Source: a virus. Taken from it: 47,694 nucleotides of DNA. Under the pieces are notes generated by a model. It did no database searches, was not told the DNA's origin, and was given only the letters and a program-made list of their open reading frames with translations. This document shows, piece after piece, positions 3,431 to 38,800 of this stretch (position 1 is its first letter; every line of letters starts with the position of its first letter). The stretch lies in IMG/VR virus record IMGVR_UViG_3300046660_000780, positions 1 through 47,694 of that record. One strand, written 5' to 3'. The translations under genes were made by a program, and so were the position numbers.

Positions 3431-3690
3431 CGGCCGGCCTCCGACACTGGCGTGGCGCTGGTGGTCGTCAGCGCCGGCCGGAACCGGCTGGGGTAGAAGT
3501 CGCAGGACGTGTCGGCCGGCACGTGGCCGAACATCGCGACGCAGCGCCGGACGTGGACGCAGTCGCCACACGTCTTGCCGGCCGGCAAGCGCATGGCCGC
3601 GTCGTAGTCGATCTCGTCCTCGCCCTGGGCGAAGGGCTGGAAGCCCTCCTCCAGAGGCAGGGTCTTGGGTTCAATGAAGGTGAAGGTCAC
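3427..3690 (-). CDS. Four-cysteine phage protein, 87 aa
   Basis: Starts with GTG 3690, overlapping the upstream stop (GTGA). The N-terminal half is acidic; the core is TCGDCVHVRRCVAMFG followed 6 residues later by SCDFYPSRFR. That gives a Cys pattern C-x2-C-x5-C-x11-C that should bind one metal or form a compact knot. I recognise the pattern (TCxDC...RC...FG...CDFxPSRF) as one that recurs in small early genes of alphaproteobacterial phages, without an assigned function. Its stop overlaps the ATG of the membrane micropeptide. Confidence 0.8.
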   Translation of the reverse strand: MTFTFIEPKTLPLEEGFQPFAQGEDEIDYDAAMRLPAGKTCGDCVHVRRCVAMFGHVPADTSCDFYPSRFRPALTTTSATPVSEAGR

Positions 3691-3911
3691 GACCCGACCT
3701 CGCGGTCGCTGGCCAGCGCGGTCCGGATCCGCTCGAAGACCTCGGTCGGAATCAGGACGTAGCCGGGGTGATGGGTGTCGCTCGTCAGAAAGTCGTCGTC
3801 GAAGCCCTTCAGGGCCTGGAGAAGGGCTTCATGACGAGCGCTCTGGACGGCGCTGCGCTTCCGCGCCTTGTCCAGAGAGCTGTAAGGAACGCGCGCGTCG
3901 CTGAAGCCCAT
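3687..3911 (-). CDS. Hypothetical protein, 74 aa
   Basis: MGFSDARVPYSSLDKARKR... The first 35 residues are basic and helical; the rest is mixed and ends DREVGS. No Cys, no membrane segment, no known motif. Start and stop are both coupled to neighbours: TGATG with the upstream 189-residue gene and GTGA with the downstream Cys-rich gene. Function unknown. Confidence 0.7.
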   Translation of the reverse strand: MGFSDARVPYSSLDKARKRSAVQSARHEALLQALKGFDDDFLTSDTHHPGYVLIPTEVFERIRTALASDREVGS

Positions 3912-5231: not shown

Positions 5232-5633
5232 TCAGCCGCCCCTGGCCTCGTCGGGCGAGGATGCGAGCGGCGCTCGCACCACGTCGCCGAGCGGCAGGCG
5301 GAACAGCCCCTGGCCGGGAAAGTCCTCGGCCGAGCACGGACGCAGGAACGTCGCCGGCAGATTGACCAGGCCGCCGCGATCCAGCTGGACCTCGGTCAAG
5401 GTCAGCAGGCGGATCGCCAGGGCGAATTCCAGGAACTCCTGGGCCATCCGCGTGGCCTCCAGCGCCATGCCGTAGAACTGATCGCGTCGGCGCGGATTGA
5501 CCTCGATCTTGTCAGTCCCGGTGGCCATCAGCTCGGCGCGCTCGGCGTGCTCTCGGGCGATGGCCACGTAGCGGGCGGCCTCGCGGCGGAACCAGGCTCC
5601 GGCCTGGTTGGCGGTGTCAGGCGACAGCGGCAT
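5232..5633 (-). CDS. Hypothetical helical protein, 133 aa
   Basis: MPLSPDTANQAGAWFRREAARYVAIAREHAERAELMATG... Residues 10-45 and 60-95 are long amphipathic helices; the C-terminal third is looser. The C-terminal VRAPLAS is encoded by a perfect copy of the dispersed palindrome (5262-5278). The start codon lies 17 bases inside the end of the ParB-like gene, so translation is probably coupled to it. Function unknown. Confidence 0.7.
   Translation of the reverse strand: MPLSPDTANQAGAWFRREAARYVAIAREHAERAELMATGTDKIEVNPRRRDQFYGMALEATRMAQEFLEFALAIRLLTLTEVQLDRGGLVNLPATFLRPCSAEDFPGQGLFRLPLGDVVRAPLASSPDEARGG
5262..5278. repeat. Dispersed palindrome copy 3
   Basis: Perfect core, within the last codons of the 133-residue gene (VRAPLAS). 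Confidence 0.85.
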
Positions 5634-8313
5634 CGGCTTGCTCCTCTTCGGTTTCGGATTGTTCGGGCTCGATGAGGTTGCCGTCTTCGAGGTGGTCCTC
5701 GGCCCAGAAGGCGGCGGCTTCCCTGGCGCCTGCGCGCGTGAAGTCGAGATCGTCGGGATCGTCGGCTTGCAGGCGCGCCCGGACCTTGTCGGCGAACGCG
5801 GGCGCACGCATTGGCGGCACGCCGTGGCGACCGATGAGCTCGCCCGTGATCCAGCTCTCGTATTCGACCCAGTCCTTGGCCTCGTGATCATCGTCCAAGT
5901 CCGACTTGGGCCAGCATCCTGTGAGGGCGGCGATCGCCAGGCGGGCCATGCGGGCTGCGACCGACTGACCGTCGACGACGGATCCTGACCGCGCTGCACC
6001 GAGCGTGGCGAAATTCCAGCCATTGGGCGGAGCCAAGAACGGCCCTTGCTGGCCGCGTTCCGCCAGGATCGCCTGGACGCGATCTCGAAGATCGTCCCAA
6101 GCGAGATCGGGCCCCTGCTCCTCGAGCTCAGCCACCCTCGCCTCGATCTCCGCCGCCTTTGCGGCGCGCACGCTGGCGACCTGGCTCTGCTTCTTGGCTT
6201 CGGCCTCGTCGGCTTCCATCGCGGCCTTGCCTTCCGGCGTCGGCTCAAACGGGCCGTTCAACCAGGCCGTCGCGTATTGCCGAGCGCGGCGGTCGTGCTC
6301 AGCTTCGGCCTGCCCGATGACCTTGGATCGCAGGTCGTGCAGGGCCTTTGATCGTTCGCCTGCCTTGTCGAGGTCGGCGCAAAGGCGCCTGAGCAGCTTC
6401 TCGGTGTCGCCGGCGAACTGCGGCCGGATGCGCAGGAGACCGTCCTTGCGCCAGCAGCTGAAGCGCCCCAACAGACCGGCGTCCTGCAGCGTCTTGATCT
6501 CTTCCTCGCCCTGACCGGCCTGGATCGGCGCTCCGTAGTGGCGTGGTTGGTCGCCGTAATACTCGTTGCCGGGTTGGCGCTTCCAGCTGTCGTAGACCTC
6601 GAACAGGACCAGGGTCAGGGCGTCGGAGATCTCAGGCGGCGGCGCGTCCGGCTTCTCGTTCAGCCATGCGGTCTGGCACTCCCCTTCCCGTTCCATGTCG
6701 TCGATGTCTTCCTCGGCGATCCCTGCGTCCCGCAGCGCCGTACGGATGGCGTCAGGGAGCTCCTCCGGCGCCTCGGCGAAGCGGCGGGCCAGCTCCACGC
6801 CGGGGCGCAAGAGCACGACTTGCCAGGGGTGGCTGGTGTCGAAGAGCGCGTAACCTCCGGCGACCAGGCCGACGGCCACGGGATGCTCCTCGCGGTTCGC
6901 CATGGGATTGATTGGGCGCGTGACCCTGGTCGTCGGCCCCAGCGGCGACGCCTTTCCCGGATGGGCGTGCGCCCGGTAGGCGATCTCCAGGACGGCGACC
7001 ACGAGATCCGGATCGACTTCCTCGACGGGGGTGGCCGCGGCGATTGCCTCCTCGAGCTCTATTTGGGCAGGCGTCGTGACCGCCTCGCCGGTAACCGCGA
7101 ACGTGGTGCGGCGGGCGTTGAGCCAAGGCGTTATGAACCCCTCGTCATCGATCAACGCACCGTGCTGCTCGGCGTTGAACGCCTCATGTCGCAACGACTT
7201 CTCGATCGAAAGCAGCTCTTCCGACGACTTGCCGGCGGTGAACTTTTCCCACCAGCGCAGACCTTGATCAGTGTTGCGCACGACGGATCGGAGTGACCCC
7301 CCGATCGGCACGACCTGCGGGTCGATCAGCTGGGCGTGGACCAGCTCGCGGAAGCTGATTGCTTGCTCATCAGAGCTGCGAAGAACCCACAATGCGCCGT
7401 GCGGGAGGTCACCGGTCACCGGCTGTTCGTTGAACTTCCGCTTGAGCTCGAACATCGCCAAGCGCGTGGGAGCGCTCAGCGGCTTAGCCTCACGGATGCT
7501 GTCGCGAAGGTCCTCCCATTTGCCGCCCGCCAGGTACTTGTCGATCGCGCCCTGTTCGGCCTTGGTCGCGATCCGGATCTTGTCCTGGACGTCGCGGACG
7601 CCAGTTTCGGCGCCCTCGCGGGCGCGACCCAGCTTGTAGGCGATGGCGCGGGCCGACAGACCGGTCTCGTCGGCATAGGCCTTGAGCGCCTTGGCGTCTT
7701 CCCAGGGCGACAGCCCCTCGCGCTGGCTGTTCTCGACCAGGCCGATAAACAGGGCTTCGGCCCGGGTGGCCTCGCGCTCGGTGTAGGGAAGTCCTTCGGC
7801 CAGCGAGGCCGGCAGCCGGCCTTCCTCGGCCAGCTGCTGGCAGGCCCGAACGCGCTGTTCGCCCGCATGCAGCATGCGAGCGCCGTTCGCATCCGGCGGG
7901 TAGAGGATGATCGCCTGCAGCAGCCCGCCGGCTTCAACGATGGTGTCGGCCAGGCCGTCGATGAAGATCCGCGACACCGACTTGCGTGGGTTGTCCGGAT
8001 TGAACTGGATCCGATCCAGCGGCCAGACCGGCATGCCGGTGACGGCTCCGTCGGGATTGGCCGCGCGGTCCAGGGCGGCGACGACTTCGACGCCCTCCTC
8101 CGTCAGGACATAGGTCGTGCCGTCCTGGCCTTCGGTGGCGATCGACATCAGCCCTTCGTCGCGGAGGCGGCGAAGATCGCGGCGAATGCTGCCGGCGTCG
8201 CCGCCGATCGCCTGCTGTACCGTGCTGGCCTTGATCGGCAGTCGCCGCTCCAGCGCCAGGCGAAGGATCGCCTCGGTCGAAAGGACCAGGGCGGTGATCG
8301 GTTGCGACGTCAT
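5617..8313 (-). CDS. ParB/Spo0J-like protein with long C-terminal extension
   Basis: 898 residues. N-terminal winged-helix-like segment (about 1-85, ALERRLPIKASTVQQAIGGDAGSIRRDLRRLRDEG). ParB N-domain at about 95-200: NPDNPRK, then AGGLLQAIILYP and GEQRVRACQQL, which matches the GERR(x)RA nucleotide-binding box with Gln in place of the second-position Arg. The HTH region (about 215-270: SPWEDAKALKAYADETGLSARAIAYKLGR) follows. The remaining 600 or so residues match nothing I recognise and include a coiled stretch (EADEAEAKKQSQVASVRAAKAAEIEARVAELEEQ). ParB-family domains bind DNA and can hydrolyse CTP. There is no ParA nearby, so this is more likely a regulator, DNA-organising or nuclease-type ParB than a partition protein. 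It contains palindrome copy 7875-7891. ATGA overlap with the gene upstream. Confidence 0.85.
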   Translation of the reverse strand: MTSQPITALVLSTEAILRLALERRLPIKASTVQQAIGGDAGSIRRDLRRLRDEGLMSIATEGQDGTTYVLTEEGVEVVAALDRAANPDGAVTGMPVWPLDRIQFNPDNPRKSVSRIFIDGLADTIVEAGGLLQAIILYPPDANGARMLHAGEQRVRACQQLAEEGRLPASLAEGLPYTEREATRAEALFIGLVENSQREGLSPWEDAKALKAYADETGLSARAIAYKLGRAREGAETGVRDVQDKIRIATKAEQGAIDKYLAGGKWEDLRDSIREAKPLSAPTRLAMFELKRKFNEQPVTGDLPHGALWVLRSSDEQAISFRELVHAQLIDPQVVPIGGSLRSVVRNTDQGLRWWEKFTAGKSSEELLSIEKSLRHEAFNAEQHGALIDDEGFITPWLNARRTTFAVTGEAVTTPAQIELEEAIAAATPVEEVDPDLVVAVLEIAYRAHAHPGKASPLGPTTRVTRPINPMANREEHPVAVGLVAGGYALFDTSHPWQVVLLRPGVELARRFAEAPEELPDAIRTALRDAGIAEEDIDDMEREGECQTAWLNEKPDAPPPEISDALTLVLFEVYDSWKRQPGNEYYGDQPRHYGAPIQAGQGEEEIKTLQDAGLLGRFSCWRKDGLLRIRPQFAGDTEKLLRRLCADLDKAGERSKALHDLRSKVIGQAEAEHDRRARQYATAWLNGPFEPTPEGKAAMEADEAEAKKQSQVASVRAAKAAEIEARVAELEEQGPDLAWDDLRDRVQAILAERGQQGPFLAPPNGWNFATLGAARSGSVVDGQSVAARMARLAIAALTGCWPKSDLDDDHEAKDWVEYESWITGELIGRHGVPPMRAPAFADKVRARLQADDPDDLDFTRAGAREAAAFWAEDHLEDGNLIEPEQSETEEEQADAAVA
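7875..7891. repeat. Dispersed palindrome copy 4
   Basis: One mismatch (CGTTCGC in the right arm); in the ParB-like gene, encoding ANGARM. Confidence 0.75.
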
Positions 8314-11214: not shown

Positions 11215-11460
11215 GAGTCTCCCCTCCGCTGGGTGCGCCGCGAGGTCTTCGGCGCCGACCAGGAAGAGATCGCCGCCATCGGCGGTGTCAGCCGCTCGCG
11301 GGTCTCTCGGTATGAGGGCGGCAGCCCCCTGCCCTATGCGTTCATGCATCGCCTCCGCACCGAGGCCCTCGCGCGCGGCTTGAGCTTCACCGCAGACTGG
11401 TTCTTCGATCCGCCAAATTCGGTCGCAGGTCAGAAGATCGAGCGTGAGGGCGGCCAGTGA
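11206..11460 (+). CDS. Cro-like HTH regulator, 84 aa
   Basis: MQNESPLRWVRREVFGADQEEIAAIGGVSRSRVSRYEGG...: a single short XRE-type HTH (about 8-60) with the recognition helix around VSRSRVSRYE, and a loose tail. Small, single-domain, divergent from a CI-like repressor and first in the rightward early operon, which is exactly the position of cro. The ATG at 11206 is chosen because the domain begins there and longer in-frame starts run through the operators. No Shine-Dalgarno is visible, and the presumed promoter would start transcription at or next to the ATG, so the message may be leaderless. The stop overlaps the next start (GTGA). Confidence 0.85.
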   Translation: MQNESPLRWVRREVFGADQEEIAAIGGVSRSRVSRYEGGSPLPYAFMHRLRTEALARGLSFTADWFFDPPNSVAGQKIEREGGQ

Positions 11461-11705
11461 CACAGCCCGCCTACTCGCCGGCACGTTTGATCGCTCCGGA
11501 ACGGGTCGAGGTCATCGTCGCACTCCCACACGAACTGTCGAGAAACCAACGTTTCTCCAGAATTTCGACAGAGCAATCAAAAAGCTTAACCATGGCTGGC
11601 GGCTATGCGTCGCAGTTGACTTGCCCGCTGTCGCGGCGGTTGGCGGCGATGGCCAGACAACCTGGGATTATGGGTCAAGAGCGCGACGCCGGGGCGTCGC
11701 GATGA
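11457..11705 (+). CDS. Hypothetical protein, 82 aa
   Basis: Reads from GTG 11457, overlapping the cro stop, to TGA 11705, overlapping the ATG of the next gene (ATGA). The coupling at both ends favours it. However, the composition of 11500-11600 is less GC-rich than its surroundings, and an internal ATG (11592) would leave only 37 residues. The protein (MTQPAYSPARLIAPERVEVIV...) is basic and shows no recognisable domain. The region also holds nested inverted repeats (11535-11571). Treat as tentative. Confidence 0.45.
   Translation: MTQPAYSPARLIAPERVEVIVALPHELSRNQRFSRISTEQSKSLTMAGGYASQLTCPLSRRLAAMARQPGIMGQERDAGASR
11535..11571 (+). repeat. Nested inverted repeats inside the early leader region
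   Basis: Outer arms CTGTCGA (11535-11541) and TCGACAG (11565-11571); inner arms GAGAAAC (11540-11546) and GTTTCTC (11551-11557) with loop CAAC. They could form one stem with a bulge in RNA, or be a protein-binding site. No T-tract follows, so it is not a typical terminator. Confidence 0.5.
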
Positions 11706-12019
11706 TCGGCCTGCGCTTCCATGCCCCGCCCCGTCCCCGGCCCGATGATCCGCGTCTGGCGGCCGCGCTGCGCCAGTTCGATGAGGTGCGCCGGTTCCGC
11801 GAGATCGCGGCCGCCAGCCGCCGCCTGGATCGCTGGATGAGCGACCTGCTGGGCCGCCTGCTGGGCCTGATCACCTACGACCTGCCTCGGGCCCCGAGCT
11901 TCCTGACCTTCAGTTGCGCAGGCGGGGCTCCCCTCCCCCGCCTGGTCGCAGGCGTCGACGAGCGCGGCGTGTGTATCGCGCTCGTCGACGGACCTGGCTT
12001 TAGCGGAGACCGGCCATGA
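11702..12019 (+). CDS. Hypothetical protein, 105 aa
   Basis: MIGLRFHAPPRPRPDDPRLAAALRQFDEVRRFREIAAASRRLDRWMSDLL... An arginine-rich helical first half and a C-terminal beta-rich half (PSFLTFSCAGGAPLPRLVAGVDERGVCIALVDG). No family recognised. ATGA coupling with the preceding ORF; strong GC3 bias in this frame supports coding. Rightward early operon. Confidence 0.6.
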   Translation: MIGLRFHAPPRPRPDDPRLAAALRQFDEVRRFREIAAASRRLDRWMSDLLGRLLGLITYDLPRAPSFLTFSCAGGAPLPRLVAGVDERGVCIALVDGPGFSGDRP

Positions 12020-13163: not shown

Positions 13164-13936
13164 TGGAAGAGCTCACCCGCAAGGATCGCGAGCTGATCAA
13201 GCTGCGCTCGGCCAGGATGTCGATGGTCTCGATCGCAGGCCTGATGGGCCGCGGCTGGACCGTCGGCCGCGTCACGCGCCGCCTTGCCGAGATCGACGTC
13301 CTGGAGGCGGGCGAGTCGCCGCCCGTCATACTGGCCGACGGCGTTGACACGGCCGAGGATCGTCTCGAGTTCGATATCGAGGGCTGGGCCGAGACGCATC
13401 GGCCGCTCTTGCCGCCTGACCATCCGACAAGGCTCATGATGACGCGCGCCACGCCGTACGCCGAGGCGGCGTTGTCGTTCCTCGACGCGAACCCCGGGGC
13501 CGCGCTGTCGATCGTCCCGATCCTTCTGCCGACCCCGTCAAGCAAGGCCGAGTTCTTCCTGGCCTGCTGGCCAACCGAGGAGCCGTGCCTTGAAACGCTT
13601 CCGCTGCCGCTCGAGCTCGAGCAAGCGCTCGTCGAGCCCGACCCAGTCGCCGCCTCCGCCCCGCCGGCCGAAGCGCCCGCTGATCCGCCTGTCGAACCGC
13701 CACACCGCAAGCCTCGCGCCGGCCGCCGGCCGGAGCCGCAAGCGGTGGCGGTCCTGGCTCAACCGACCACGCCTGCGGTCGTTCGTCCGCCTTCGGGTAC
13801 GGCGGTTCGCCTTCGGCCGGTGACGGACCGGATTATTCGCTTCGCCGCCCGTTTCGCGGCCGCGCGCTGGCCGCTCGAGGAGATCGCCGAGCTGTTCGAC
13901 GTCTCGCCCGAGCAGCTCGAGAAGGTGCTGGCCTGA
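13163..13936 (+). CDS. Protein with HTH-like ends and proline-rich linker, 257 aa
   Basis: N-terminal segment (about 1-45, LTRKDRELIKLRSARMSMVSIAGLMGRGWTVGRVTRRLAEI) looks like a sigma-region-4 or resolvase-type HTH. After a middle domain there is a Pro/Ala/Glu-rich linker (about 145-205). The C-terminal segment DRIIRFAARFAAARWPLEEIAELFDVSPEQLEKVLA is a second HTH-like unit. The two-HTH architecture suggests a DNA-binding adaptor, perhaps a regulator or replication initiator, as it lies upstream of methyltransferase, primase and helicase genes. Family not recognised. Start ATG 13163 in TGATG overlap. Confidence 0.65.
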   Translation: MEELTRKDRELIKLRSARMSMVSIAGLMGRGWTVGRVTRRLAEIDVLEAGESPPVILADGVDTAEDRLEFDIEGWAETHRPLLPPDHPTRLMMTRATPYAEAALSFLDANPGAALSIVPILLPTPSSKAEFFLACWPTEEPCLETLPLPLELEQALVEPDPVAASAPPAEAPADPPVEPPHRKPRAGRRPEPQAVAVLAQPTTPAVVRPPSGTAVRLRPVTDRIIRFAARFAAARWPLEEIAELFDVSPEQLEKVLA

Positions 13937-14649
13937 TGATCCGCGAAGAGATCTTCGGGGACTGCAGGCTCCTCCTGGCCAACTGCCTGGATCCAGAGCT
14001 CGAGCTGGGTGAGGTCGACGGCTGGGTCAGCGACCCGCCATACGCCTTCAACAATTCGGGCGGCGGCAAGTACCGCAAAGCCCGTCGCAAAGGCTCCGAC
14101 GCGATCGTGCGGAACCGCCTGGACAAGGGCTTTGACCTGGGCGCCCTCGACCTCGGCGCGCCGCGCAGCGTGGTCGTGTTCTGCCACAACGACCAGCTGG
14201 TGACCCTCCTTCCCGTCCTGGCGTCGCGTTTCCGACGGCACGCGGTCTTGTCGGTTCACAAGACCAATCCGCCGCCCTTCGCCAACAAGCACTATCTGGC
14301 CGACACCGAGTTCTACATCCACGCCTGGAACGAGGGCGCTCATCCGGTTGGTGGGCGCCAGGACCTGCGTCGCTGGACCGAGGTCAGCCGGCCCCGGAGC
14401 GAATACGACCACCCGACGGTCAAGCCGCTCCCCGTCATGTGCAAGATCGTGCGCAATATGAACGCGACGCGGATCCTGGACCCCTTCATGGGCACGGGAA
14501 CGACGGGCGAGGCGTGCCTGATCGAAGGTCGGTCCTTTGTCGGGATCGAGAAGGATCCGGCCTTCTTCGACATGGCCTGTCGACGCCTGGCCCAGCGCCA
14601 AGAATGGCTGGCGAAGTGCGATGCGGCCTTTGGTGAGGCAGCGGCATGA
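13936..14649 (+). CDS. Orphan DNA methyltransferase, beta-class N6-adenine type
   Basis: 237 residues. Catalytic motif IV DPPY at 33-36; SAM-binding motif FMGTG at 184-188 in the C-terminal half; a conserved HPTVKPLPVM box before it. The DPPY-first order is that of beta-class methyltransferases such as CcrM, which methylate adenine N6. The target-recognition region between about 40 and 150 (NNSGGGKYRKARRKG ... HKTNPPPFANKHYLADTEFYIHAW) is compact. No restriction endonuclease gene is nearby, so it probably protects phage DNA or alters host methylation-dependent regulation. TGATG with the upstream gene, ATGA with the downstream one. Confidence 0.92.
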   Translation: MIREEIFGDCRLLLANCLDPELELGEVDGWVSDPPYAFNNSGGGKYRKARRKGSDAIVRNRLDKGFDLGALDLGAPRSVVVFCHNDQLVTLLPVLASRFRRHAVLSVHKTNPPPFANKHYLADTEFYIHAWNEGAHPVGGRQDLRRWTEVSRPRSEYDHPTVKPLPVMCKIVRNMNATRILDPFMGTGTTGEACLIEGRSFVGIEKDPAFFDMACRRLAQRQEWLAKCDAAFGEAAA

Positions 14650-14921
14650 AAAAGCCCGTCCGCCTCTACAACTGCATCCCGATGACGGCCGAGCGCCTGA
14701 AGGCGCTGCAGGAGCTGGCCCGCCATCCGAACGGCTCGGCCGCCATCCGTGGCGTGCTCGAGGGCGCGCACCTGGCGACCCTGGTGGCCATGGGCCTCGC
14801 CGAGCGCCTCCCGGCGCAAGATCGCATGGGCGGCTCCTGGTACCGCTGCACCGCTGACGGCCAGGACCTCGCCGGCGTCGCCGATGCGAGCGGCGCTCGC
14901 ACCGGGGCGGCGAATGACTGA
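14646..14921 (+). CDS. Hypothetical protein, 91 aa, winged-helix-like
   Basis: MKKPVRLYNCIPMTAERLKALQELARHPNGSAAIRGVLEGAHLATLVAMGLAER... then a beta hairpin (GGSWYRCTADGQDL). The arrangement resembles a small MarR/winged-helix fold in which the last beta strand reads YRCTxxG. Its last residues, DASGART, are encoded by a perfect palindrome copy (14885-14901), so the palindrome sits at the very end of the gene. The ORF overlaps the primase start by 8 bases. Function unknown, possibly DNA-binding. Confidence 0.7.
   Translation: MKKPVRLYNCIPMTAERLKALQELARHPNGSAAIRGVLEGAHLATLVAMGLAERLPAQDRMGGSWYRCTADGQDLAGVADASGARTGAAND
14885..14901. repeat. Dispersed palindrome copy 5
   Basis: Perfect core, at the very end of the 91-residue gene (DASGART) and 13 bases before the primase start. 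Confidence 0.85.
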
Positions 14922-16128
14922 GCCGTCGATCTTCGACAAGGTGAAGGATGAGGTCTCGATCGAGGACGTCGCCGAGCGCCTGACGACCCTGCACGGCGGC
15001 AAGAACAGCCGGCGGGGTCGCTGCCCGATCAATGGTTGCGGCACGCCGGCGCGGGGCAAGGCCGCTGGTCGTCCCTTCGAGGTGCGGCCAAACCAGGGCC
15101 GGTTCAAGTGCTACAGCTGCGGCGAGCGCGGCGACGTGATCGAGCTGGCCTCGCAGGCCTGGAAGGTCACGGCGATCGAGGCCTGCCGCGAGCTGCTGGG
15201 CGCGGGCTTCGAAGCGCCGCCGCCGCCGGCCAAGGCCCGCGAGCAGGATGATCGGTCCTATCAGCGCAAGCTGGAGATGGCCGAGGAGATGTGGAAGTTC
15301 GGCCGCCCGATCGCCGGGACGCTGGTCGAGCGCTACCTGCTTTCGCGCGGGATCCTGCAGGCGGTGATCGACCTGGTCGCGCCTGCCATTCGCTTCCACC
15401 CCTTCGCCTTCCATCACTGGGACGACCAGGCCCGCGCCTGGATCAAGGCCCCGGCCATGCTGCTGAGACCCGAAACCCCCGCCGGACCCACCGGCGGGGT
15501 TCATGCGACCTATCTGCTGCGCGACGGGACCGGTCGCGACAAAGGTCTCGGTAAGCTGATGTGGGGCCCTCAGACCGGGGCCGATGGCCAGCCCGGCGGC
15601 GTGTGGCTGGTCGGGCCCGTGGTCGACGATCCTTGTTTCGACGGCACGCCGCTGCTCGAGGGGGAGGGCGCGGAATCCGCCTTGAGCTTGCTTTGCATAG
15701 CGCTCGAGCAGGGCCGGATGGCGCGCTGCGTGACCGTCCTGGCGCTGAACCGCATGCAGGGCCTGGTCGAGACCGACCGCGACGGCTGCATGGACCTGAG
15801 CAAGCCCAGGGCGGCGCGAAACAAGGATGGTTCGCTGATGGGCCCGGCCTTCACCTGGCCAAACCCGATCGAGCAGCCCTGGCCCGAGGTCATCGTCGGC
15901 GTCGACGCCGACATGGCGCCGATCAAGATCAAGATGCGGACGGGCCGGGGAAAGGTGGTTCCGGCGATGCTGGACGCCCCGGCGCGGGCCGACCTTTGCG
16001 GCCGCCTGGCCACGCGCGCCTGGCGGCAGGCGGGCTCGAAAGCGCGGTCGATCGTCCCGCCGGGACTTCAAGACTTCAACGACGAGTGGCGTCGCCGGTT
16101 GGCGGCGCGAGAGGGGCGTAAGGCGTGA
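14914..16128 (+). CDS. DNA primase (CHC2-type zinc finger + Toprim)
   Basis: 404 residues from ATG 14914. Zinc-binding domain: Cys37, Cys42, Cys66 and Cys69 (RCPINGC ... FKCYSCGERGD), as in DnaG-type primases. Middle region about 110-240. Toprim domain: the acidic signature LLEGEGAESAL with Glu249, then GVDAD with Asp331 and Asp333 binding the metal. It should make RNA primers for phage DNA synthesis together with the helicase-like ATPase encoded next. TGATG-like tight packing on both sides (8-base overlap upstream, GTGA overlap downstream). Longer in-frame starts upstream would run through the previous gene and are not needed for any domain. Confidence 0.9.
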   Translation: MTEPSIFDKVKDEVSIEDVAERLTTLHGGKNSRRGRCPINGCGTPARGKAAGRPFEVRPNQGRFKCYSCGERGDVIELASQAWKVTAIEACRELLGAGFEAPPPPAKAREQDDRSYQRKLEMAEEMWKFGRPIAGTLVERYLLSRGILQAVIDLVAPAIRFHPFAFHHWDDQARAWIKAPAMLLRPETPAGPTGGVHATYLLRDGTGRDKGLGKLMWGPQTGADGQPGGVWLVGPVVDDPCFDGTPLLEGEGAESALSLLCIALEQGRMARCVTVLALNRMQGLVETDRDGCMDLSKPRAARNKDGSLMGPAFTWPNPIEQPWPEVIVGVDADMAPIKIKMRTGRGKVVPAMLDAPARADLCGRLATRAWRQAGSKARSIVPPGLQDFNDEWRRRLAAREGRKA

Positions 16129-18086
16129 GCGACGACATCGACGACGACATCGAGGCCTTTGACGACGAGCCCGCGCCTGAGCCGGCCGCCGCCGCGACCT
16201 CGGACTATGTGCCCCTGAAGCTGGAGAGCGACGAGGAGGCCGACGAGACTGACGAGAAGGATCTGGGCGCCTATCCCAATCCGCCGCTCGAGGAATGCCC
16301 GGTCGTGCCCCTGGGCCACTACGGCAACAAGGTCGTGTTCGCCATGCCCGAGGGCGAGATCCGGCACGAGGCCGCCTCGAAGGTCGGCCAAATGCTGCGA
16401 ACCGACATCTTCGCCTGCGTGCCCGGCGTGATCTTCCTGAACAACTGGCGGGACAAGAAGGAAAAGCTGCATCGCGAGCTGGCGGTGATCTGGCTGGTCC
16501 GCAAGTGCCGCGAGGCCGGCTATTGGGACACCAATCGGACGACCAGGTCGTTGGGCGTCTGGCCTGGCTCGGGCGACGTCGTGATGCTGCACCTGGGCGA
16601 CCAGGTGTGGACGTTCGGCTCGGACGGGATCGTCAAGCGCTCGATCGTCGAGATGATGCGCGAGCGCTCGGGCCCGCTCTACAAAATCGCCCCCCCGGCC
16701 CCCAGGCCCGCCAAGCCCGCCAGGACCAAGGTCGGCGACTGGATCCGGGAATGCCTCAGCCTCTGGAACTTCGAGCCGATCGGCCCCGACGGGCTAGATG
16801 GCGGCGACATCCTCGCCGGGTGGCTGATGGCGGCCCTGCTGGGCGGGGTCGCGCCCTTCCGCGGCCACATGATCGTCTACGGGTCGCACGGGGCCGGCAA
16901 GACGACGCTGGTCCAGTTCATCCACGCGCTGGCCTCGACGATCGCCGGCGAGCTGCTCAACAGCTTCTCGGACGCGGGCTTTCGGTCTGACATCAGCGGC
17001 CTGGCGCGCCCCGTGTTCCTGGACGAGACCGAGAGCTCGGCCAGCACCGGGCATGGACCAGGGCCGGTCGAGCAGGCCATCGTGGTGCTCAGGCGGATGT
17101 CGACGGGCGACGGCAGCAAGCGCAAGCAGGGTGGCGGCGAGAACGGCGGCTCGACCACCCAGACGGCCCTGGGGTCGGCGTTGCTGGGGGCCATCACGCC
17201 GCCCAAGCTGGAGACGGCCGACGCTTCGCGGTTCTTCGAGGTCAGGCTGCGCCCCCTCGCCTCCCCGAAGTTGGATGCCTCCGGCGCGCCGATCGACATG
17301 GACGCCCACCTGAAGGCCATGATGGCCGAGGCCAAGCGCCTGGCGCCGGCGATCTTCGGGCGGGCCGTCGTTGGGGCCGACCGCTATCGGGCGGACGTCT
17401 CGATGATAAAGGCCGCCCTGGTCCGAACGGGCGAGAAGCCGCGCTCGGCCGACCTGGTGGCCATGGTGGCGGCCGGCCGGCGTCTGCTGCTGCATGACAA
17501 GCCTCTCGATGCCGCCGGGGCCGACGCCGAGATCCTGTTCTGGAAGCCGCTGCTGGCCCAGCGCCAGGCCTCGGAGATCATCACCAACGTCGGGGCCGAC
17601 GCCCTGGGCCACCTGCTGGCCTTCGAGACCTCGGTCCATCGGAACGACCGCAAGGTGTCGATCGGGTTGATGGTCGAGCGCCTGGTGGCCGGGGATCGCG
17701 ACTACGTCGAGATGCTCAAGACCTATGGCCTGCAGGTCTGGGACGAAGGGCACGGCACGATCATCTGGGAGGCCGGCGACGGAGGTCCCCAGGGGCGGCC
17801 TGGCCCCTGGCTGATCGTGGCCAACAACCATCCGCAACTGAAGCGGATCTTCGCGGGAACGCGCTGGGACGACTGGCGGCGGGCGTTGGGCTTCCTCGAC
17901 GACCTGGGGGCGGACTACGCCACCTGGACCACCAAGGGCCTGCGCTACGGCACGGGCGTGAAGCAGCGCGGCCTGGCGATCCCCCTCACCCCCTTGCTCG
18001 ATCGGCTCTCGCCCTCGTCGAGCGACCGTTCCGGGGGCGTTCCGGCCACCCGTTCCGGCCATGCGGTTGATTTCGATGAGGATTAG
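16125..18086 (+). CDS. P-loop ATPase / replicative helicase-like protein
   Basis: 653 residues starting at GTG 16125 (GTGA overlap). The acidic N-terminal 45 residues are likely disordered. Walker A GSHGAGKT at 253-260 (Lys259), Walker B VFLDE with Asp300-Glu301, and later an arginine-containing segment RFFEVRLRPL. The order and spacing fit DUF927/VirE-like or SF3-style phage helicases that pair with a Toprim primase. Likely unwinds the origin or fork. The last 60 bases of the gene already carry GTTCC repeats that continue into the intergenic candidate origin. Which helicase superfamily it belongs to would need a profile search. Confidence 0.8.
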   Translation: MSDDIDDDIEAFDDEPAPEPAAAATSDYVPLKLESDEEADETDEKDLGAYPNPPLEECPVVPLGHYGNKVVFAMPEGEIRHEAASKVGQMLRTDIFACVPGVIFLNNWRDKKEKLHRELAVIWLVRKCREAGYWDTNRTTRSLGVWPGSGDVVMLHLGDQVWTFGSDGIVKRSIVEMMRERSGPLYKIAPPAPRPAKPARTKVGDWIRECLSLWNFEPIGPDGLDGGDILAGWLMAALLGGVAPFRGHMIVYGSHGAGKTTLVQFIHALASTIAGELLNSFSDAGFRSDISGLARPVFLDETESSASTGHGPGPVEQAIVVLRRMSTGDGSKRKQGGGENGGSTTQTALGSALLGAITPPKLETADASRFFEVRLRPLASPKLDASGAPIDMDAHLKAMMAEAKRLAPAIFGRAVVGADRYRADVSMIKAALVRTGEKPRSADLVAMVAAGRRLLLHDKPLDAAGADAEILFWKPLLAQRQASEIITNVGADALGHLLAFETSVHRNDRKVSIGLMVERLVAGDRDYVEMLKTYGLQVWDEGHGTIIWEAGDGGPQGRPGPWLIVANNHPQLKRIFAGTRWDDWRRALGFLDDLGADYATWTTKGLRYGTGVKQRGLAIPLTPLLDRLSPSSSDRSGGVPATRSGHAVDFDED

Positions 18087-18278
18087 GCCGCCTGGAACGC
18101 TGGAACGGGTGGAACGCCCCTTGCCCCCCTGCCTGAGCAGGCGAGCGAGCGCACACGACAGCTATGTCGTACCACCCGTTCCACCCGTTCCTACTTCTTA
18201 CTTCTTCAATCAATTCAATAGAATAGACTGGAACAGGCCTGGTACGGCCTGGAACGGTCAGCGTACGGGGCTGTTCCA
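18024..18278. other. Candidate replication origin with GGAAC/GTTCC iterons
   Basis: Eleven GGAAC/GTTCC pentamers occur in about 250 bases, at 18028, 18039, 18052 (GTTCC), 18094, 18102, 18111 (GGAAC), 18178, 18187 (GTTCC), 18230, 18251 (GGAAC) and 18273 (GTTCC). About 0.5 would be expected by chance. They form three-, three- and two-member arrays with 8-13 base spacing and opposite orientation. GGAACGGGTGGAACG (18102-18116) is the exact reverse complement of 18177-18191. An A+T-rich tract, about 18188-18229, lies among them, unlike anything else in this GC-rich window. Position right after primase and helicase genes fits an origin. Covers the 192-base gap 18087-18278. Confidence 0.65.
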
Positions 18279-18968
18279 ATGAGCTTTATCGAGCGTGGCG
18301 ACCGCGAAACCCTGGCCGAGCACCTGCTGCGCAACGCAGCTGTTCTCGGGGCCGACAAGGGCCAGACCCAGCGCCTCAAGTCGGCCTTCCTGCTGAGCGT
18401 CTCGGCCCTGCAGTCCGATCGGATGCTCGGAGGCCAGATCGCCGCCGAGGTCCGGGCCGAGCTGAAGGTCGCCTTCGACGCCCTGCTGATCGAGGCCAAG
18501 TCCCGCGGCGAAAAGGTCGAGACCTACAACGACGCCGGGGCCAAGCGGATCAAGGGCCGTGACGGACTGGCGGCCCTGGCCCTGCCCGAGCAGGAGCTCA
18601 GCTTCGGTCTGTCCTATCGCCAGTGCTACGACGTGGCGGTCTCCGGCTTGAAGTCCAGCCTCAACCCTGACGCCGGTGGCGGCCGGGCCTTCGTCCCAGG
18701 CCTCGGCCCTCGTGACCAAGCCGCCCTGCGCCGCGCCTACCTGTTGGCCCGGCTGGCCCAGTTCGATCGGGCCATCGCCCAGTGCGGTGTCGGCGACGGT
18801 CGCGAGCTGCTGGCCGTGCGCCTGGTGGCGGGCGAAGGGCGCACGATCAACTCGTTCGCCTTCGGCGGTCAGGCCCGCAAGGTCTACACCTCCGCGCTAC
18901 GCGATGGCCTCGCCGTGGTGGGCGAAGCGCTTCGTGTCCGACCCCCCTTGCGAATCACAGGCAGTTAA
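18279..18968 (+). CDS. Hypothetical protein, 229 aa, HTH-like C-terminus
   Basis: MSFIERGDRETLAEHLLRNAAVLGADKGQTQRLK... The N-terminal 90 residues are helical. A second region (LSYRQCYDVAVSGLKSSL, then RRAYLLARLAQFDRAIAQ) is followed by ELLAVRLVAGEGRTINSFAFGGQARKVYTSALRDGLAVVGEAL, which reads like a winged or homeodomain-type HTH. Last gene before the terminator and the late genes, the position of late regulators such as antiterminators, so it may be a late-gene activator (inference from position). The start ATG 18279 directly follows CTGTTCCA of the iteron region; no strong Shine-Dalgarno. Confidence 0.65.
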   Translation: MSFIERGDRETLAEHLLRNAAVLGADKGQTQRLKSAFLLSVSALQSDRMLGGQIAAEVRAELKVAFDALLIEAKSRGEKVETYNDAGAKRIKGRDGLAALALPEQELSFGLSYRQCYDVAVSGLKSSLNPDAGGGRAFVPGLGPRDQAALRRAYLLARLAQFDRAIAQCGVGDGRELLAVRLVAGEGRTINSFAFGGQARKVYTSALRDGLAVVGEALRVRPPLRITGS

Positions 18969-19049: not shown

Positions 19050-19084
19050 GCCCGCAACCCCTTACGCCACAAGGGTTTGCGGGC
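19050..19084 (+). repeat. Strong 14-bp hairpin
   Basis: Left arm 19050-19063 (GCCCGCAACCCCTT), 7-base loop ACGCCAC, right arm 19071-19084 (AAGGGTTTGCGGGC); 13 of 14 positions pair. No T-run follows. It could back up the terminator at 19015 or be a terminase or integration host factor-type landmark in the packaging region. Confidence 0.6.
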
Positions 19085-19244
19085 CGCCACCCCCGCCCCT
19101 CCCCTGCACCCCCCCCCCGGCCTCGCGGGTCCTTCCCCCCGGCCAGGGACGTATACGGTCGGTCGGAGCGCGATCCTCGAAAGATATCTAAGTCGCAGAA
19201 AACATTATGAGTTTTGCGGCTTATGGCCTTGGGAGGTCTTGCTT

Positions 19245-19868
19245 ATGACCGAATGGGTCTCCCAATCCCAAGCCGTCCGCCTCCTCGAGGCCCTGGGCGA
19301 CAAGATCAGCCAGCCGGCGCTGAGCCAGTTCCTCAAGGGCCATCCCGAGGTGGAACGCAAAGACCAGGGACCTGGTCGCGGCATGCTGATCGACTTCGAC
19401 GCGCTGAAGGGCGCGCGGTCGACGCGGATCAGCCGAGGCCCCGCTTCCGTCCCCGGCGGTGAACTGCCTCTCGCGCCGCCGGTGGCCGTTTCGGCCCCGC
19501 CGCCGGCCGAAGGTAGGGCTCCAGACCCGGAGCGCGAGGCGTCGGTGCTGCTGAGCCGCCGCAAGGCGGTCGCCGACACCGAGACGGCCGAGTTCAACTC
19601 CCGGCGGGCGCGAATTCTGGCGCAGGAGGCCGAAGGGCGGCTCCTCGACAAGGCGGTCGCGATGCAGGCCTTCATGGCCGCTGGCGCCGCCCTGGTGCGG
19701 GCCCTAGAGGATGGCCGGCGCAAGGCGGTCGACAGCGTTCGGGCGGCCAAGTCGAGCCGCGAGGCGGACCTGGCGATGCGGGCGCATGAGCACGCAGTGC
19801 GAGCGGCGTTCGCAGAGGCGCTGAAGGATCTGGCCGGCGAAGTCCAACCGGAGGCCTCGGCGGCCTGA
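19245..19868 (+). CDS. terS: Terminase small subunit
   Basis: 207 residues from ATG 19245, behind GGGAGG at 7 bases. The N-terminal 60 residues form an HTH of the Nu1/gp1 type: VSQSQAVRLLEALGDKISQPALSQFLKGHPEVER. A proline-rich linker follows, then a long helical region RKAVADTETAEFNSRRARILAQEAEGRLLDKAVAMQAF that matches the oligomerisation part of Nu1-like proteins. It recognises the packaging site and hands DNA to the large subunit, whose gene overlaps by 1 base (TGATG). It carries a palindrome copy at 19798-19814 (encoding VRAAFAE). Longer in-frame starts at 19077 run through the hairpin and have no ribosome-binding site. Confidence 0.85.
   Translation: MTEWVSQSQAVRLLEALGDKISQPALSQFLKGHPEVERKDQGPGRGMLIDFDALKGARSTRISRGPASVPGGELPLAPPVAVSAPPPAEGRAPDPEREASVLLSRRKAVADTETAEFNSRRARILAQEAEGRLLDKAVAMQAFMAAGAALVRALEDGRRKAVDSVRAAKSSREADLAMRAHEHAVRAAFAEALKDLAGEVQPEASAA
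19798..19814. repeat. Dispersed palindrome copy 6
   Basis: One mismatch in the right arm; in the small terminase gene, encoding VRAAFAE. Confidence 0.7.
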
Positions 19869-22006
19869 TGCCTGCCGATCTCTCGGGGTTCGGGGCGCAG
19901 ATCGCGACCCTGTTCCTGGCGTTGGCTACGGCCGTGGCTCCGGCGCCCGACCAGGCGATCTACGAATGGTCGGAGGGGCGGATCGTCATTCCGGCCGAGG
20001 CGCAGACCGCGCGCCCTGGTCCGCTGTCGTGGGAGGAATTCGAGTACTGCCTCGAGCCGCTGGAGCGGCTGAGCTTCCTGGACAGCGCCTCTCGCGTCAC
20101 GATCATGGCGGCGGCCCAGACCGGCAAGTCGAACATCGGGATCGTCTGGACCGCGCACATCATCTGCGTGGCCCCGCGGCCGCTGGGGATCGGCGTGCCG
20201 TCGCGACCCAAGGGGTTCCTGTTCAACTCCAAGAAGCTGCAGCCGGTCTTCGACAAGACCCCCGAGCTGAAAGAGCGGGTCGCGGCCGAGAACGGAAAGG
20301 CCAAGCGCGGCTCGACGACGTTCACGAAGTTCTTCCCGGGCGGTACGGCGACGATCTTCTCGGCCGGGTCGATCAACGATCTGCAAATGGACAGCTACGG
20401 CGCCCTGTGGCTGACCGAGACGCCGAACTTCAAGGCCGAGCTCGGCTCGCGCGGCTCACCTGTCTCCCAAGCCCGCGCCCGGATGGATGGCTGGGAGAAG
20501 GTCGGAACCAAGGAGCTGCACGAGAGCACGCCTGGCGAGGAAGGGGCCTGCCCCGTCTCGGCCGACTTCGAGGCGGGCGACCGGGGCGAGATCTACCTAC
20601 CGTGTCCCCACTGCGAGCATAGCTTCCGGATCGATTGGGAAGACTTCGTTGGCTGGGAGAACGCGGCCGAGCAGCCCTATGTCGTCCCGCCCTGCTGCGG
20701 TCCGACCACTGGGGCGATCATCACCGAGGATGACATGCCCGCTCTCAAGGCGGTCATTCGTCACCGCCTGGTCGCCGAGCGGACCTTTACGGCCGAGACG
20801 TTCGATCTCATCGAAGACGAGCTGGCCGCCGGCTATCTGCGGACCTACCCGTCGAAGGATCAGGCCAATCCCCCGCCGGGCCGTTTCGTTCGAAAGGCCG
20901 ATTTCAACGCTTGGCGTCGACGCCCGACCGAAGGCCGCGAGCCCAGCTACCACTTCTGGCAAATCCTATCGCCGCTGAAGACCTGGGCCGGCCTTGGCAA
21001 GGACTGGCGCGACGCCAAGGGAAAACCCGCCGAAGAAGCCTCGTTCCGCCAGCAGAAGCTGGGGCTGCCCTCGGAGAGCAGCGCCAAGGCGCCCGACACC
21101 CAAGCGATCGCCGAAGCCATCGCCAAGCTGGGAGTTCGCCCGAAGGAGGTTCCGCCCGGGACCTGCTGGCTTAGCGGAACGGCCGACATCCAGGGCGATC
21201 GGATCGAATGGGCCATCTACGCCCATGGCCCGGCGTTCATGTGCCGGATCGACCGGGGTGTGATCGACAAGGATCCGCTGAACGTCGAGGCCTGGGTCGA
21301 GCTCGGGAAGGTAACCCAGCGACGCTATGCGGGGCCTCAGGTGCGGCCGTTGGGCATTGACGCCTTCGGGGTCGACTCCGGCGGCGTGGATGGGGCTACG
21401 CCCCGCGTCTACGAATTCACCCGCGGCCGCGCGAACGTCTACGCGATCAAGGGCGCTTCTCGGGCCCTGGAATCGAAGCTCCCGACCGAGCTCAAGAAGA
21501 TCAAGGGCAAGGACACCAAAGAGCGGACGATCGTCGTCGATCTGCTGCGGATCGACGGCTACGTCGTCAAAAAATACGTGGCGTACGGGCTTCAGGGCCT
21601 GGTCGCCAGCGCCGAGCATGGCTCGATCGAACCGGGGTCGATCCTGTTCGAGGACGACACCAGCGAAGAGGACATCAAGCAGCTCACCGGCGAGGTGTTC
21701 AAACGCGCCGTCGACGCCAAGCCCGGCGAGCGCGGCGAGTGGGTCCAGGTCCACGCCAACGAGCAGCTCGACCTGGCGGTCTACGCCTGGGCGCTGGCCT
21801 ATCAGAAGCGTGTTCACACCTGGGACCAGAAGCGCTGGGACCAGGAATTCACCCGCCGCGCCCGCCTGCCGGACGAACCGGCCGAGACGCCCATGGAGGC
21901 GCTCTGGTCGACGCCGGCGGCCGCCCCGCCCATGCCCAAGGCCGAGCTCGCCGACAACCCCGGCGGCGGGCGGCGGTCGATGTTCTCAGCAAGGAAGAAC
22001 CTCTGA
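19868..22006 (+). CDS. terL: Terminase large subunit, GpA family
   Basis: 712 residues. ATPase domain with a phosphate-binding loop AAQTGKSN (Lys87, Ser88). The usual Walker B aspartate-glutamate is replaced: ALWL is followed by Thr183-Glu184, so the catalytic Glu is kept but the Asp is not. A zinc-cluster insert (CPHC at 246-249, then PPCCG) is typical of GpA terminases. The nuclease domain begins at TADIQGDRIEWAIY (Asp440) and includes the FGVDSGG and LDLAVYAWALAY segments. It cuts concatemers and drives DNA into the prohead. Length and order match the lambda gpA type. The N-terminal 25 residues are hydrophobic, which is unusual. Confidence 0.93.
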   Translation: MPADLSGFGAQIATLFLALATAVAPAPDQAIYEWSEGRIVIPAEAQTARPGPLSWEEFEYCLEPLERLSFLDSASRVTIMAAAQTGKSNIGIVWTAHIICVAPRPLGIGVPSRPKGFLFNSKKLQPVFDKTPELKERVAAENGKAKRGSTTFTKFFPGGTATIFSAGSINDLQMDSYGALWLTETPNFKAELGSRGSPVSQARARMDGWEKVGTKELHESTPGEEGACPVSADFEAGDRGEIYLPCPHCEHSFRIDWEDFVGWENAAEQPYVVPPCCGPTTGAIITEDDMPALKAVIRHRLVAERTFTAETFDLIEDELAAGYLRTYPSKDQANPPPGRFVRKADFNAWRRRPTEGREPSYHFWQILSPLKTWAGLGKDWRDAKGKPAEEASFRQQKLGLPSESSAKAPDTQAIAEAIAKLGVRPKEVPPGTCWLSGTADIQGDRIEWAIYAHGPAFMCRIDRGVIDKDPLNVEAWVELGKVTQRRYAGPQVRPLGIDAFGVDSGGVDGATPRVYEFTRGRANVYAIKGASRALESKLPTELKKIKGKDTKERTIVVDLLRIDGYVVKKYVAYGLQGLVASAEHGSIEPGSILFEDDTSEEDIKQLTGEVFKRAVDAKPGERGEWVQVHANEQLDLAVYAWALAYQKRVHTWDQKRWDQEFTRRARLPDEPAETPMEALWSTPAAAPPMPKAELADNPGGGRRSMFSARKNL

Positions 22007-35862: not shown

Positions 35863-38800
35863 TGCCCCGCGCCTGGCGTAGCTTCCGGCGTTGGCTGGCC
35901 GCCTCGGCCTGTGGCCTTGCGCTGCTGGGTCTGCCGGCGGTGGCCCATGCCGATCCGATCAGCGCGACCGCCGCGGCGATCGTGGCGGCCATCGGCGTCA
36001 CCGGCACGGCGGCGACGATCGCCACCTTCGTGATCACGACGGCGCTGCGGATGGCGACCGCCTACGCCTTGTCGAAGCTGACCGGGCCCAAGCGCGCCCA
36101 GCAGGAACGCCAGGCCAGCGTCACCACCCTCAGCATCGGCGAGAGCGCCCGGGAAGTTGCGTTCGGACGCGTCTGCAGCGGCGGTTCGCTGGTCGCGGCC
36201 GCCAACTTCGGCGGCGAGTACGGCACGGACTGGGAGGTGCTGGAGATCGCCCTGGCCGATCATGAGATCGACGGCCTAGAAGGCTTCTACATCGGCGCGG
36301 ACTTCTACCCCTACACCGGCAACGGCCTGCAGTCGGGGTTCAGCAACTGCCTGGATCTGGAGTTCGTCAACGCCTCGGACGATGTCGCGCCGCCGGCGCG
36401 CTTCGCCGGCGCCGCCGGCATGGGCGACCTGGACCGGCTGCGCGGCGTGGCCAAGGTCTGGGCGGCGTACAAGGCCAACGACAAGGTCTGGCCCCAGGGC
36501 CGGCCGTCGTTCAAGTGGCTGTTTCGGGGCAAGCGCTGCTACGACGCGCGCAAGGACAGCACCGTCCCCGGCGGCGATCCCGACGGCGACCATCGCTGGA
36601 ACGCGCCGTCGACGTGGGAGTGGTCGGAAAACGTCTATGTCTGTCGCTACAACTGGCTGCGCGGGGTCTTCGCGCTGGACCAGGTCGACAAGCCGGAAAT
36701 GCTGCTGGTCGGCCGTGGTCTGAGCGAGATCGAGGCGCCGCCCGAAAACGTCTTCGCGCCCGCCAATGTGTGCGACGAGCTGGTGGCGCTGAAGGCGGGC
36801 GGCAGCGAGGCGCGCTACCGTTGCGCGGCGGTCATTCGAGCCGACGAGACCTTCGACACGACCGAGCAGATGTTCGCGGCCGCCATGGCCGGGGTGATCG
36901 TCCAGCGCGAAGGCGGCGTCGAGATCGAGCCTGGCCAGGCCAAGAGCACGGTCGTCGAGATCACCGACGCCGACCTGGTGATCGGCGAGACGGTCACGTT
37001 CGACCGCTTCCTTCCGGCCCCCGACCGGGTGAACACCGTCATCGGTCGCTATGTCGAGCCGGCCCAGGGCTGGAGCGACCACGCCGCCCCGGTCCGCCGC
37101 TCGGTGGTCGACATCGAGGACGACGGCGGCCCGAACGAAGCGACGCTGTCGCTGGGCTTCGTCACCTCCGGCACCCAGGGCCAACGTTGCGCCGAAGCCG
37201 AGCGCCGACTGGGCCGGATGGAACGGCGCGCGACGATCCCGCTGGGCCCGCGGTTCTCGGGCCTGGAGGAAGGCGACTGGATCGGCTGGACGTCGGATCG
37301 CTGGCATCAGGGCGGCCGGGTCGTCTATCGCGTCGAGGCCTGGTCCAGCGCCGCCAGTGGACGAATGACGCTGGCGCTGCGCGAGATCGCCAGCTCGGCC
37401 TTCAGCTGGAACGCCGCCGTCGACGAGATCGTCCCCGGTACGGCGCCGCCGCCCGAGCCGGCGCGGCCGGATCCGCTGGGGGTCGCCGGCGCGGTGATCA
37501 CGATCGGGGCCCTGGTCGGCGAGGATGGGTCCTCGTCGCCGGCGATCCGCGCGACCTGGGCCACGCCCGTGGATCCGGCCCTGCAGGGCCTGCGGCTCGA
37601 GGTGCGCGTGGCCGGCGAGGCCGACGTCACGCCGACGACGATCACCGCCCAGGACGCCCTGGATCGCGGCGTCCTCGTCACCGACAACGGCGTGGCGGCC
37701 TCGGCGACGCTCGAGGCCCGCCTCGTGCCCCTGACCGATCCCTCGCGAGAGATCCAGCCCTCCGACTGGACGGAGGTCGTCAGCGGCCCGTCGACGGCCA
37801 GCGGCGCGACCGTCGTGCCCTGGAGCGGCGTGCAGGACGACGACGGCCAGCGTCCGGAGGACGGCGCCGACGTCACCGCCAACCACACGGCGGGAAACAC
37901 CGCCTTCGTCGGCGAGAAGCCGGCGGGCGAGGTGGTCAGCGACCTGGTGACGAACGCCGAGCAGATCCTGGCCGAGATCCTGCGCGGCGCGGTGGCCCGC
38001 GCCTACATCGACGCCCGCACCTATCTGGACGGCGTGCTGATCGGCACGGTGCTGACGCAGGAGATCGAGAACCGCATCACGGCCGACGAGGCCTATGCCG
38101 CCCTTCTTTCCCTGTTGGGCGCGAAGAACGGCGACGCCTCCGCCTGGATCATGGCCGCCTCCGTGGTGCTGGCCAGCAGCGGCCACACGCTCGGCTCGTT
38201 CATCGAGTACGTGGAATCGACCCTCGGCGACGGCACGGTCTCGATCACCGAGCTGAAGGAAGCGATCGACGGCGCCTATGGCCGCTGGGCGGTCAGCGTC
38301 CAGTCTCTGCTCGGAGGCACGCTCAAGGCGATCGGCGGCATCGAGGTGACGGTCGACGGCGTGACCGAGACCAGCGCGGTCAATTTCATCGCCGACTACT
38401 ACCGGTTCGTGCGCCTGGACGGCACGAGCCCCGTGTACCTGCTGACCTACGACGAGGCGAATGATCGCTGGACCTTCGGGGCGGATCTCTACGCCCAGAA
38501 GATCGTCGCCGACTCGATCGACACGATCCACTTGCGCGTGGGCGGCGTCATCACCAACCGGATCGCCGACCACAACATCTCAGACAACGAGATCAGCGGC
38601 GCCTCGAGCACGGTCTACGGCACGGGGTCCGACGTGACCCTGTTCGAACAGGAGTTCGAATTGGACAACCCCGCGCGGGTCAGGGCCGAAGGCGATGTGG
38701 CGTTCCTGGACGGCGGCGGCAACGGGCCCTCCTACCACCAATCGCGCCTGCGGCTGCTGATCAACGGGACGCAGGTGAACCTCAACGACGCCGGAGGCGT

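Follow-up and report, generated by a model that had tools for sequence, protein, structure and literature searches.

Gene context and layout of the array

The window, meaning the whole stretch of 47,694 nucleotides that was analysed, is a contig deposited as an IMG/VR virus record, in which a replication segment has the order N6/N4 methyltransferase, CHC2/DUF7146 primase, helicase, repeat array, an ORF without assigned function, probable terminase small subunit and GpA-type terminase large subunit. The DnaG-like primase (14749..16128, plus strand, 459 aa), with a CHC2 zinc finger and a DUF7146 domain, was assigned by Pfam PF23639 (1.7e-16) and PF01807 (4.6e-8) and by PHROG 510 DNA primase (2.8e-31), and its gene lies directly 5' of the helicase gene, whose start it overlaps. 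The D5-like AAA+ helicase, which is the proposed initiator (16125..18086, plus strand, 653 aa), matched phrog_21086 (5e-160) and phrog_35358 DNA primase (3e-33). The ORF after the array (18279..18968, plus strand, 229 aa) had no match in Pfam and PHROG searches; its homologues (cluster c10) were present in six loci and come after the array in several phages of the window's type. It is followed by the probable terminase small subunit (19077..19868, plus strand; phrog_57 at 3e-3 and a homologue in locus L057 at 5.5e-4) and the GpA-type large subunit (19868..22006, plus strand; PF20454 at 2.7e-43 and PF05876 at 7e-38). The contig also encodes a head protease, a tail tube and a serine integrase and is therefore probably that of a temperate phage; identity as a phage-inducible chromosomal island (PICI) was rejected because of these genes and its own terminase. 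In addition, the N6/N4 DNA methyltransferase gene (13936-14649) is part of the replication operon, and a methyltransferase is found at the same place in Phaeobacter phage-plasmids. A large serine recombinase, the probable integrase, occupies the left end of the contig (1-1656, minus strand), and 5617-8313 (minus strand) encodes a protein of 898 aa that gave a weak ParB N-terminal match.

Eleven exact copies of GGAAC/GTTCC lie within 18028-18277, against 0.54 expected per 255 bp. The sole other pentamer of the contig that reached as many copies in 255 bases was the GC-rich CCGCC (3.3 expected), and the best 6-mer count at the array site was reached by none of 300 Markov shuffles. The iteron unit spans about 7 bp (TGGAACG), and two degenerate copies, both TGGTACG, were recognized at 18168-18174 (minus strand) and 18240-18246 (plus strand). 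Twelve places thus form four triads of the orientation <<< >>> <<< >>>, plus one outlier copy. Triad I (18028..18056, minus strand) has GTTCC at 18028, 18039 and 18052 and is located within the 3' end of the helicase gene, where, according to the alignment, it encodes part of the C-terminal tail of the protein. Triad II (18094..18115, plus strand) has GGAAC at 18094, 18102 and 18111, whereas triad III (18169..18191, minus strand) consists of the degenerate GTACC at 18169 and GTTCC at 18178 and 18187, and triad IV (18230..18255, plus strand) of GGAAC at 18230 and 18251 with the degenerate GGTAC at 18241 between them. A 13th copy (18273..18277, minus strand), just 5' of the ATG of the next ORF, falls outside the conserved scheme. 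Between triads II and III is a G+C-rich centre (18116..18168, 53 bp, GC 0.70), and between triads III and IV an A+T-rich tract (18192..18229, 38 bp, GC 0.26), the presumed unwinding element, which is the lowest-GC 38-mer anywhere in the 47.7-kb contig. A perfect 15-bp inverted repeat joins 18102-18116 and 18177-18191.

An earlier sequence-only reading of this DNA had reported eleven pentamer copies in about 250 bases, perfect 15-base inverted-repeat arms, an unusual A+T tract amid the copies and a location of the first three copies inside the end of the helicase gene, and each of these was recovered, the helicase ORF stopping at 18086. The mirrored orientation that it described also holds, whereas its three arrays have to be replaced by four triads, since two of the copies are degenerate.

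Fold of the helicase

The AlphaFold model of the helicase had a mean pLDDT of 69 and was good, apart from gaps, between about residues 130 and 626. Foldseek matches included PriRep1 with dsDNA, the C-terminal region of the NrS-1 primase-polymerase, MPXV E5/pox D5 and MCM proteins. As the best of these matches combined a probability of 1.00 with low TM-scores of about 0.25-0.30, the assignment was kept at the level of fold, at which the protein is predicted to be a hexameric D5-like AAA+ helicase carrying a helix-hairpin domain at its C terminus. The winged-helix-like C-terminal region (17607..18002, plus strand, codons 495-626), proposed from the model and its conserved motifs to be the iteron-binding domain, has predicted helices at 513-521, 525-533, 570-576 and 584-594 and strands at about 601-620, mostly with pLDDT above 80, and the alignment revealed conserved TxWxDW..L and GxKQR motifs in it.

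Conservation of the array in relatives

Searches with the single helicase protein gave almost nothing, and the first relatives came from a terminase query. A 17-sequence helicase alignment was too divergent as a query, and narrower alignments gave homologues; the resulting set is mostly metagenomic. Scans for the GGAAC pattern are conditioned on the word and also return coding repeats (L020, L032, L063, L112 and others), which were left out; therefore, conclusions on conservation were drawn from the sets found by protein first.

Relatives found through the terminase carried 12 copies with start-to-start spacings of 11-12, 12, 43, 9, 9, about 60, 9, 9, 43, 12 and 10-11. When only the helicase was used for the search, the array was located at +8 to +25 nt past the stop in close relatives whose 3' end is intact, and most helicase-found relatives had six-unit scores of 38-42 out of 42, compared with about 28-30 in shuffles. 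Of 16 members, 11 had a gap of 38 bp between triads III and IV and 15 had one of 37-39 bp, with a GC content of 0.22-0.38, and the centre between triads II and III was 49-60 long with a GC content of 0.63-0.80. Cellular relatives with the window-type array, which also showed helicase homology, were in Brevundimonas, Caulobacter and a Rhodobacteraceae bacterium. The word was TGGAACG, CGGAACG or GGGAACG in relatives of the window type, and TGTGACG in L263 and L264. Judged from these sequences, the conserved feature is the geometry, which is kept more strictly than the word, and not GGAAC itself. The sequence-only reading had named conservation of the array in relatives as a check on its proposal; in the protein-found relatives, copy number, spacing, place and A+T tract were kept while the word drifted. 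The K to Q change in the GVKQR motif of the window family occurs with TGTGACG and also with GGGAACG; words vary too little in this family for a test of a recognition code to be resolved there. As a separate observation, the A+T tract (18192-18229 and its equivalents in relatives) has an inner sequence of about TCAATARRATAGACT, kept in most window-type phages beyond A+T richness.

The same architecture in other primase-helicase families

A pattern scan of IMG/VR detected at least 119 stretches with the core formed by triads II and III, and about half of the core matches examined had at least 10 copies within 150 bp to each side. True arrays adjoin the 3' ends of long primase-helicase ORFs or overlap them; these ORFs belong to different families, namely the window type, DUF7146-Toprim, VapE-like, DUF927, PrimPol-D5 and BT4734/PriCT. 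The largest of these families was the DUF7146-Toprim primase-helicase (970-990 aa), for which homologues gathered by protein search were pooled with those found earlier. Among the 85 distinct homologues obtained, 76 had the array, usually with 11-12 exact core copies, and the nine others were mostly truncated or interrupted records. Fifteen words were found in this sister family, including TGTGAACC, GGGGAACC, GGGGAACG, GGGGACCT, TGTGAGCC, GGTGAATG, CGTGAGGG, TGTGAGGT and GGGGTACC.

Similarly, phage MinM1 has exactly 12 copies of TGTGAG at the same place, and phage phi1422 has exactly 12 copies of GGTAAC, again at this place, with perfectly mirrored spacings (9, 10, 14, 64, 8 / 89 / 8, 64, 14, 10, 9). 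The homologous helicases of phiCbK, RpAliso, ZRG1 and plasmid pMt-1 had no such array. Phage-plasmids of Phaeobacter and Leisingera have the gene order of the window but only a weak, degenerate GTAAC array; in one phage-plasmid with this replication gene order, Phaeobacter inhibens pP24_g (L275, NZ_CP010703.1), an annotated acyl-homoserine-lactone synthase adjoins an autoinducer-binding regulator at 36275-37508.

The sister family showed several further features. Between triads II and III (in L007, L038, L041, L044, L072 and others), the centre of the array contains an alternating purine-pyrimidine run of CG/CA repeats, with a mean of 21 nt and typically 28, compared with about 6 in shuffles, which would be Z-DNA-prone at the dyad; the corresponding run in the window is of 9 only. 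One contig, L072, has two arrays about 8 kb apart (3433-3759 and 11450-11706), each with its own primase-helicase, and the word is GGAACG in one and GGAACC in the other, as if neighbouring replicons used different words.

Co-variation of the word with winged-helix residues

The relationship between iteron word and protein was analyzed in the DUF7146-Toprim family. In a first co-variation, with the base after GGAAC, some of the columns (residues 880-955) were themselves encoded by iterons; these columns were discarded, and the test was redone with an unbiased set on a tree of the helicase body only (residues up to 780), with 366 positions tested. Base 3 of the iteron changed 12 times on this tree; on all 12 branches concerned, residues 851 and 854 changed as well, and on 11 of them residue 853. 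For the last base there were 17 changes, 14 of them accompanied by a change of residue 827. The best p values of the co-change test over the 366 positions were 3e-13 and 1e-12, and the leading positions were in the C-terminal domain. Among the 76 sequences, G at base 3 was found with His853 and Lys, Gln or Asn854 in 45 of 45, and T with Arg-Arg, Gln-Gly or His-Gly at 853-854 in 31 of 31. Lys827 was present in all 23 sequences whose last base is G or A and in none of the 53 with C or T. The residues at 827, 851, 853 and 854 are not encoded by iterons, the first exact copy lying at least 28 nt further on. Part of the co-change is due to the linkage of the domain to the neighbouring origin, and the mean matched co-change fraction was indeed 0.33 in the C-terminal domain versus 0.11 in the body; this background stays below the 0.82-1.0 of the four key positions.

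In the AlphaFold model of a sister protein, residue 827 is in the predicted recognition helix (824-831) and residues 851-854 are at the tip of a beta-hairpin (the wing). Since confidence is low in the C-terminal part, this placement relies on the secondary-structure pattern, by which residues 827 and 851-854 are predicted to be the DNA-touching parts of a winged helix. The recognition code was seen in the sister family and may carry over to the family of the window by analogy of position, architecture and domain. More generally, we give about even chances to the proposal that, within an unchanging geometry, all twelve copies change their word jointly and in concert with three or four winged-helix residues; the recognition code would then be readable, and co-resident phages would have a means of keeping their origins distinct.

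Proposed origin and alternative explanations

The array is very probably the replication origin of a temperate alphaproteobacterial phage, bound by the C-terminal winged helix of the helicase encoded at 16125-18086, which would load itself. This reading starts from observations on the array and its geometry, on how both are conserved, on its constant position behind the primase-helicase gene and on the co-variation that links word and C-terminal domain in the sister family; from these we infer origin activity, iteron binding, a double hexamer and the melting site. Features that mark self-loading helicases were found at the locus, i.e., iterons 3' of and overlapping the helicase gene, a D5/SF3-like fold and an A+T region between iteron sets. 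The D5-like AAA+ helicase would bind, through its C-terminal winged-helix domain, the twelve TGGAACG-type iterons located 3' of its own gene and overlapping it. Because the spacing of the triads is mirrored, six sites lie on each side of the dyad, and the helicase probably assembles as two opposed hexamers; twelve sites in mirrored spacing may correspond one to one with the subunits of a double hexamer. The count of 12 recurs in phi1422 and MinM1 with other words. The helicase would then probably melt the 38-bp A+T tract that separates triads III and IV and load itself, and the DnaG-like primase (14749) would prime. GC skew along the contig gave no origin mark at the array. The replication origin proposed by the sequence-only reading is thus well supported by comparison, as close relatives whose 3' end is intact keep the position, copy count and geometry of the array. 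Its suggestion of an initiator that binds GGAAC direct and inverted repeats also gained support, the likely initiator being the helicase at 16125 with its winged helix.

Chance clustering or a by-product of coding for the helicase tail is scarcely credible: triad I does lie in coding sequence and GC-rich genomes are rich in short repeats, but eleven copies face an expectation of 0.54, and the persistence of the geometry in diverged sequence refutes chance. A role in RNA, in which the transcribed inverted repeats of triads II and III would form a hairpin controlling expression of downstream genes, is very improbable. The triads are indeed inverted repeats with long potential stems; however, at the most variable position of 49 elements, the spacer match was 0.57 in hairpin register versus 0.59 for direct repeats, and the word varies jointly in all copies rather than pairwise. 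Rfam, promoter and terminator scans gave no match or signal.

Somewhat less remote, though still quite improbable, is a packaging site (cosB- or pac-like) for the terminase small subunit, which is encoded 0.8 kb downstream. In window-type relatives for which enough sequence is available, a GpA terminase follows the array at a distance of about 1.6 kb, but the array tracks the primase-helicase also where its neighbours are a resolvase or a ParB-methyltransferase and no terminase, and the word co-varies with the helicase. The strongest competitor, itself unlikely, is that the iterons are bound by another protein, either the product of ORF 18279 or a host factor, and that the helicase is merely recruited, in which case the array would still be an origin. 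ORF 18279 begins two bases past the last copy and its homologues adjoin several arrays. In the sister family, however, it is with winged-helix residues of the primase-helicase that the word co-varies. The array there frequently adjoins a RuvC-like resolvase gene, so that no neighbour other than the helicase is constant. Both points favour the helicase as the reader of the iterons.

With the near-constant 12 sites and mirrored spacing, the question of double-hexamer loading becomes directly testable on a small DNA. About a hundred relatives share a fixed layout in which the word changes in step with the proposed DNA-reading end of the helicase (the code coming from the sister family), and the 15 naturally occurring words, together with the winged-helix residues that match them, provide a data set for the evolution of initiator-origin specificity. 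This series also makes it possible to find the origins of uncultured phages from sequence.

Comparison with known systems

The sequence-only reading had considered this a new type of origin, which is too strong, because iteron and A+T origins 3' of self-loading helicase genes are known (PMC6092414, PMC7581432), those of SaPI/PICI and SCCmec Cch2 following the same plan. The twelve-site, four-triad layout in full phages appears to be undescribed; a literature search found no description of such an array in phages, which is weak evidence given its partial journal coverage.

The alpha protein of P4 is a phage-coded primase-helicase that recognizes its own origin repeats (ori/crr). The window resembles it in that a phage-encoded replication protein is proposed to recognize its own origin repeats, but P4 alpha is one fused protein, whereas the window has one gene for the primase and another for the helicase, and a P4 alpha-type replicon was rejected on this gene structure. 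In lambda and iteron plasmids, iterons are found beside an A+T-rich tract and partly within the initiator gene, and the same is true of the window iterons and their proposed initiator gene. Lambda O is not a helicase and recruits host DnaB, whereas the proposed initiator of the window is itself the helicase.

In SaPI/PICI elements, the gene for the initiator-helicase Rep is directly followed on its 3' side by short iterons and an A+T-rich stretch, and pri-rep-ori segments of PICIs replicate a plasmid (PMC6092414). SaPI Rep binds the iterons just 3' of its own gene with its C-terminal domain and is believed to do so as a pair of hexamers (PMC6092414, PMC7581432). The window shares the succession of helicase gene, iterons and A+T stretch and, as proposed, the C-terminal reader. 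It differs in that its array occurs in phages of full size that carry genes for terminase, head and tail, consists of 12 sites in four triads of fixed mirrored spacing with triad I in coding sequence, and belongs to a type of phage array served by initiators of several families. In the putative origin of SCCmec Cch2, AAGTG iterons 3' of a D5-family helicase gene are bound by the C-terminal domain (PMC7581432). Five-base iterons downstream of a D5-family helicase gene are thus common to both systems, but there are three direct iterons in SCCmec versus 12 in mirrored triads in the window, which has a DnaG-like primase instead of the CCPol-MP pair.
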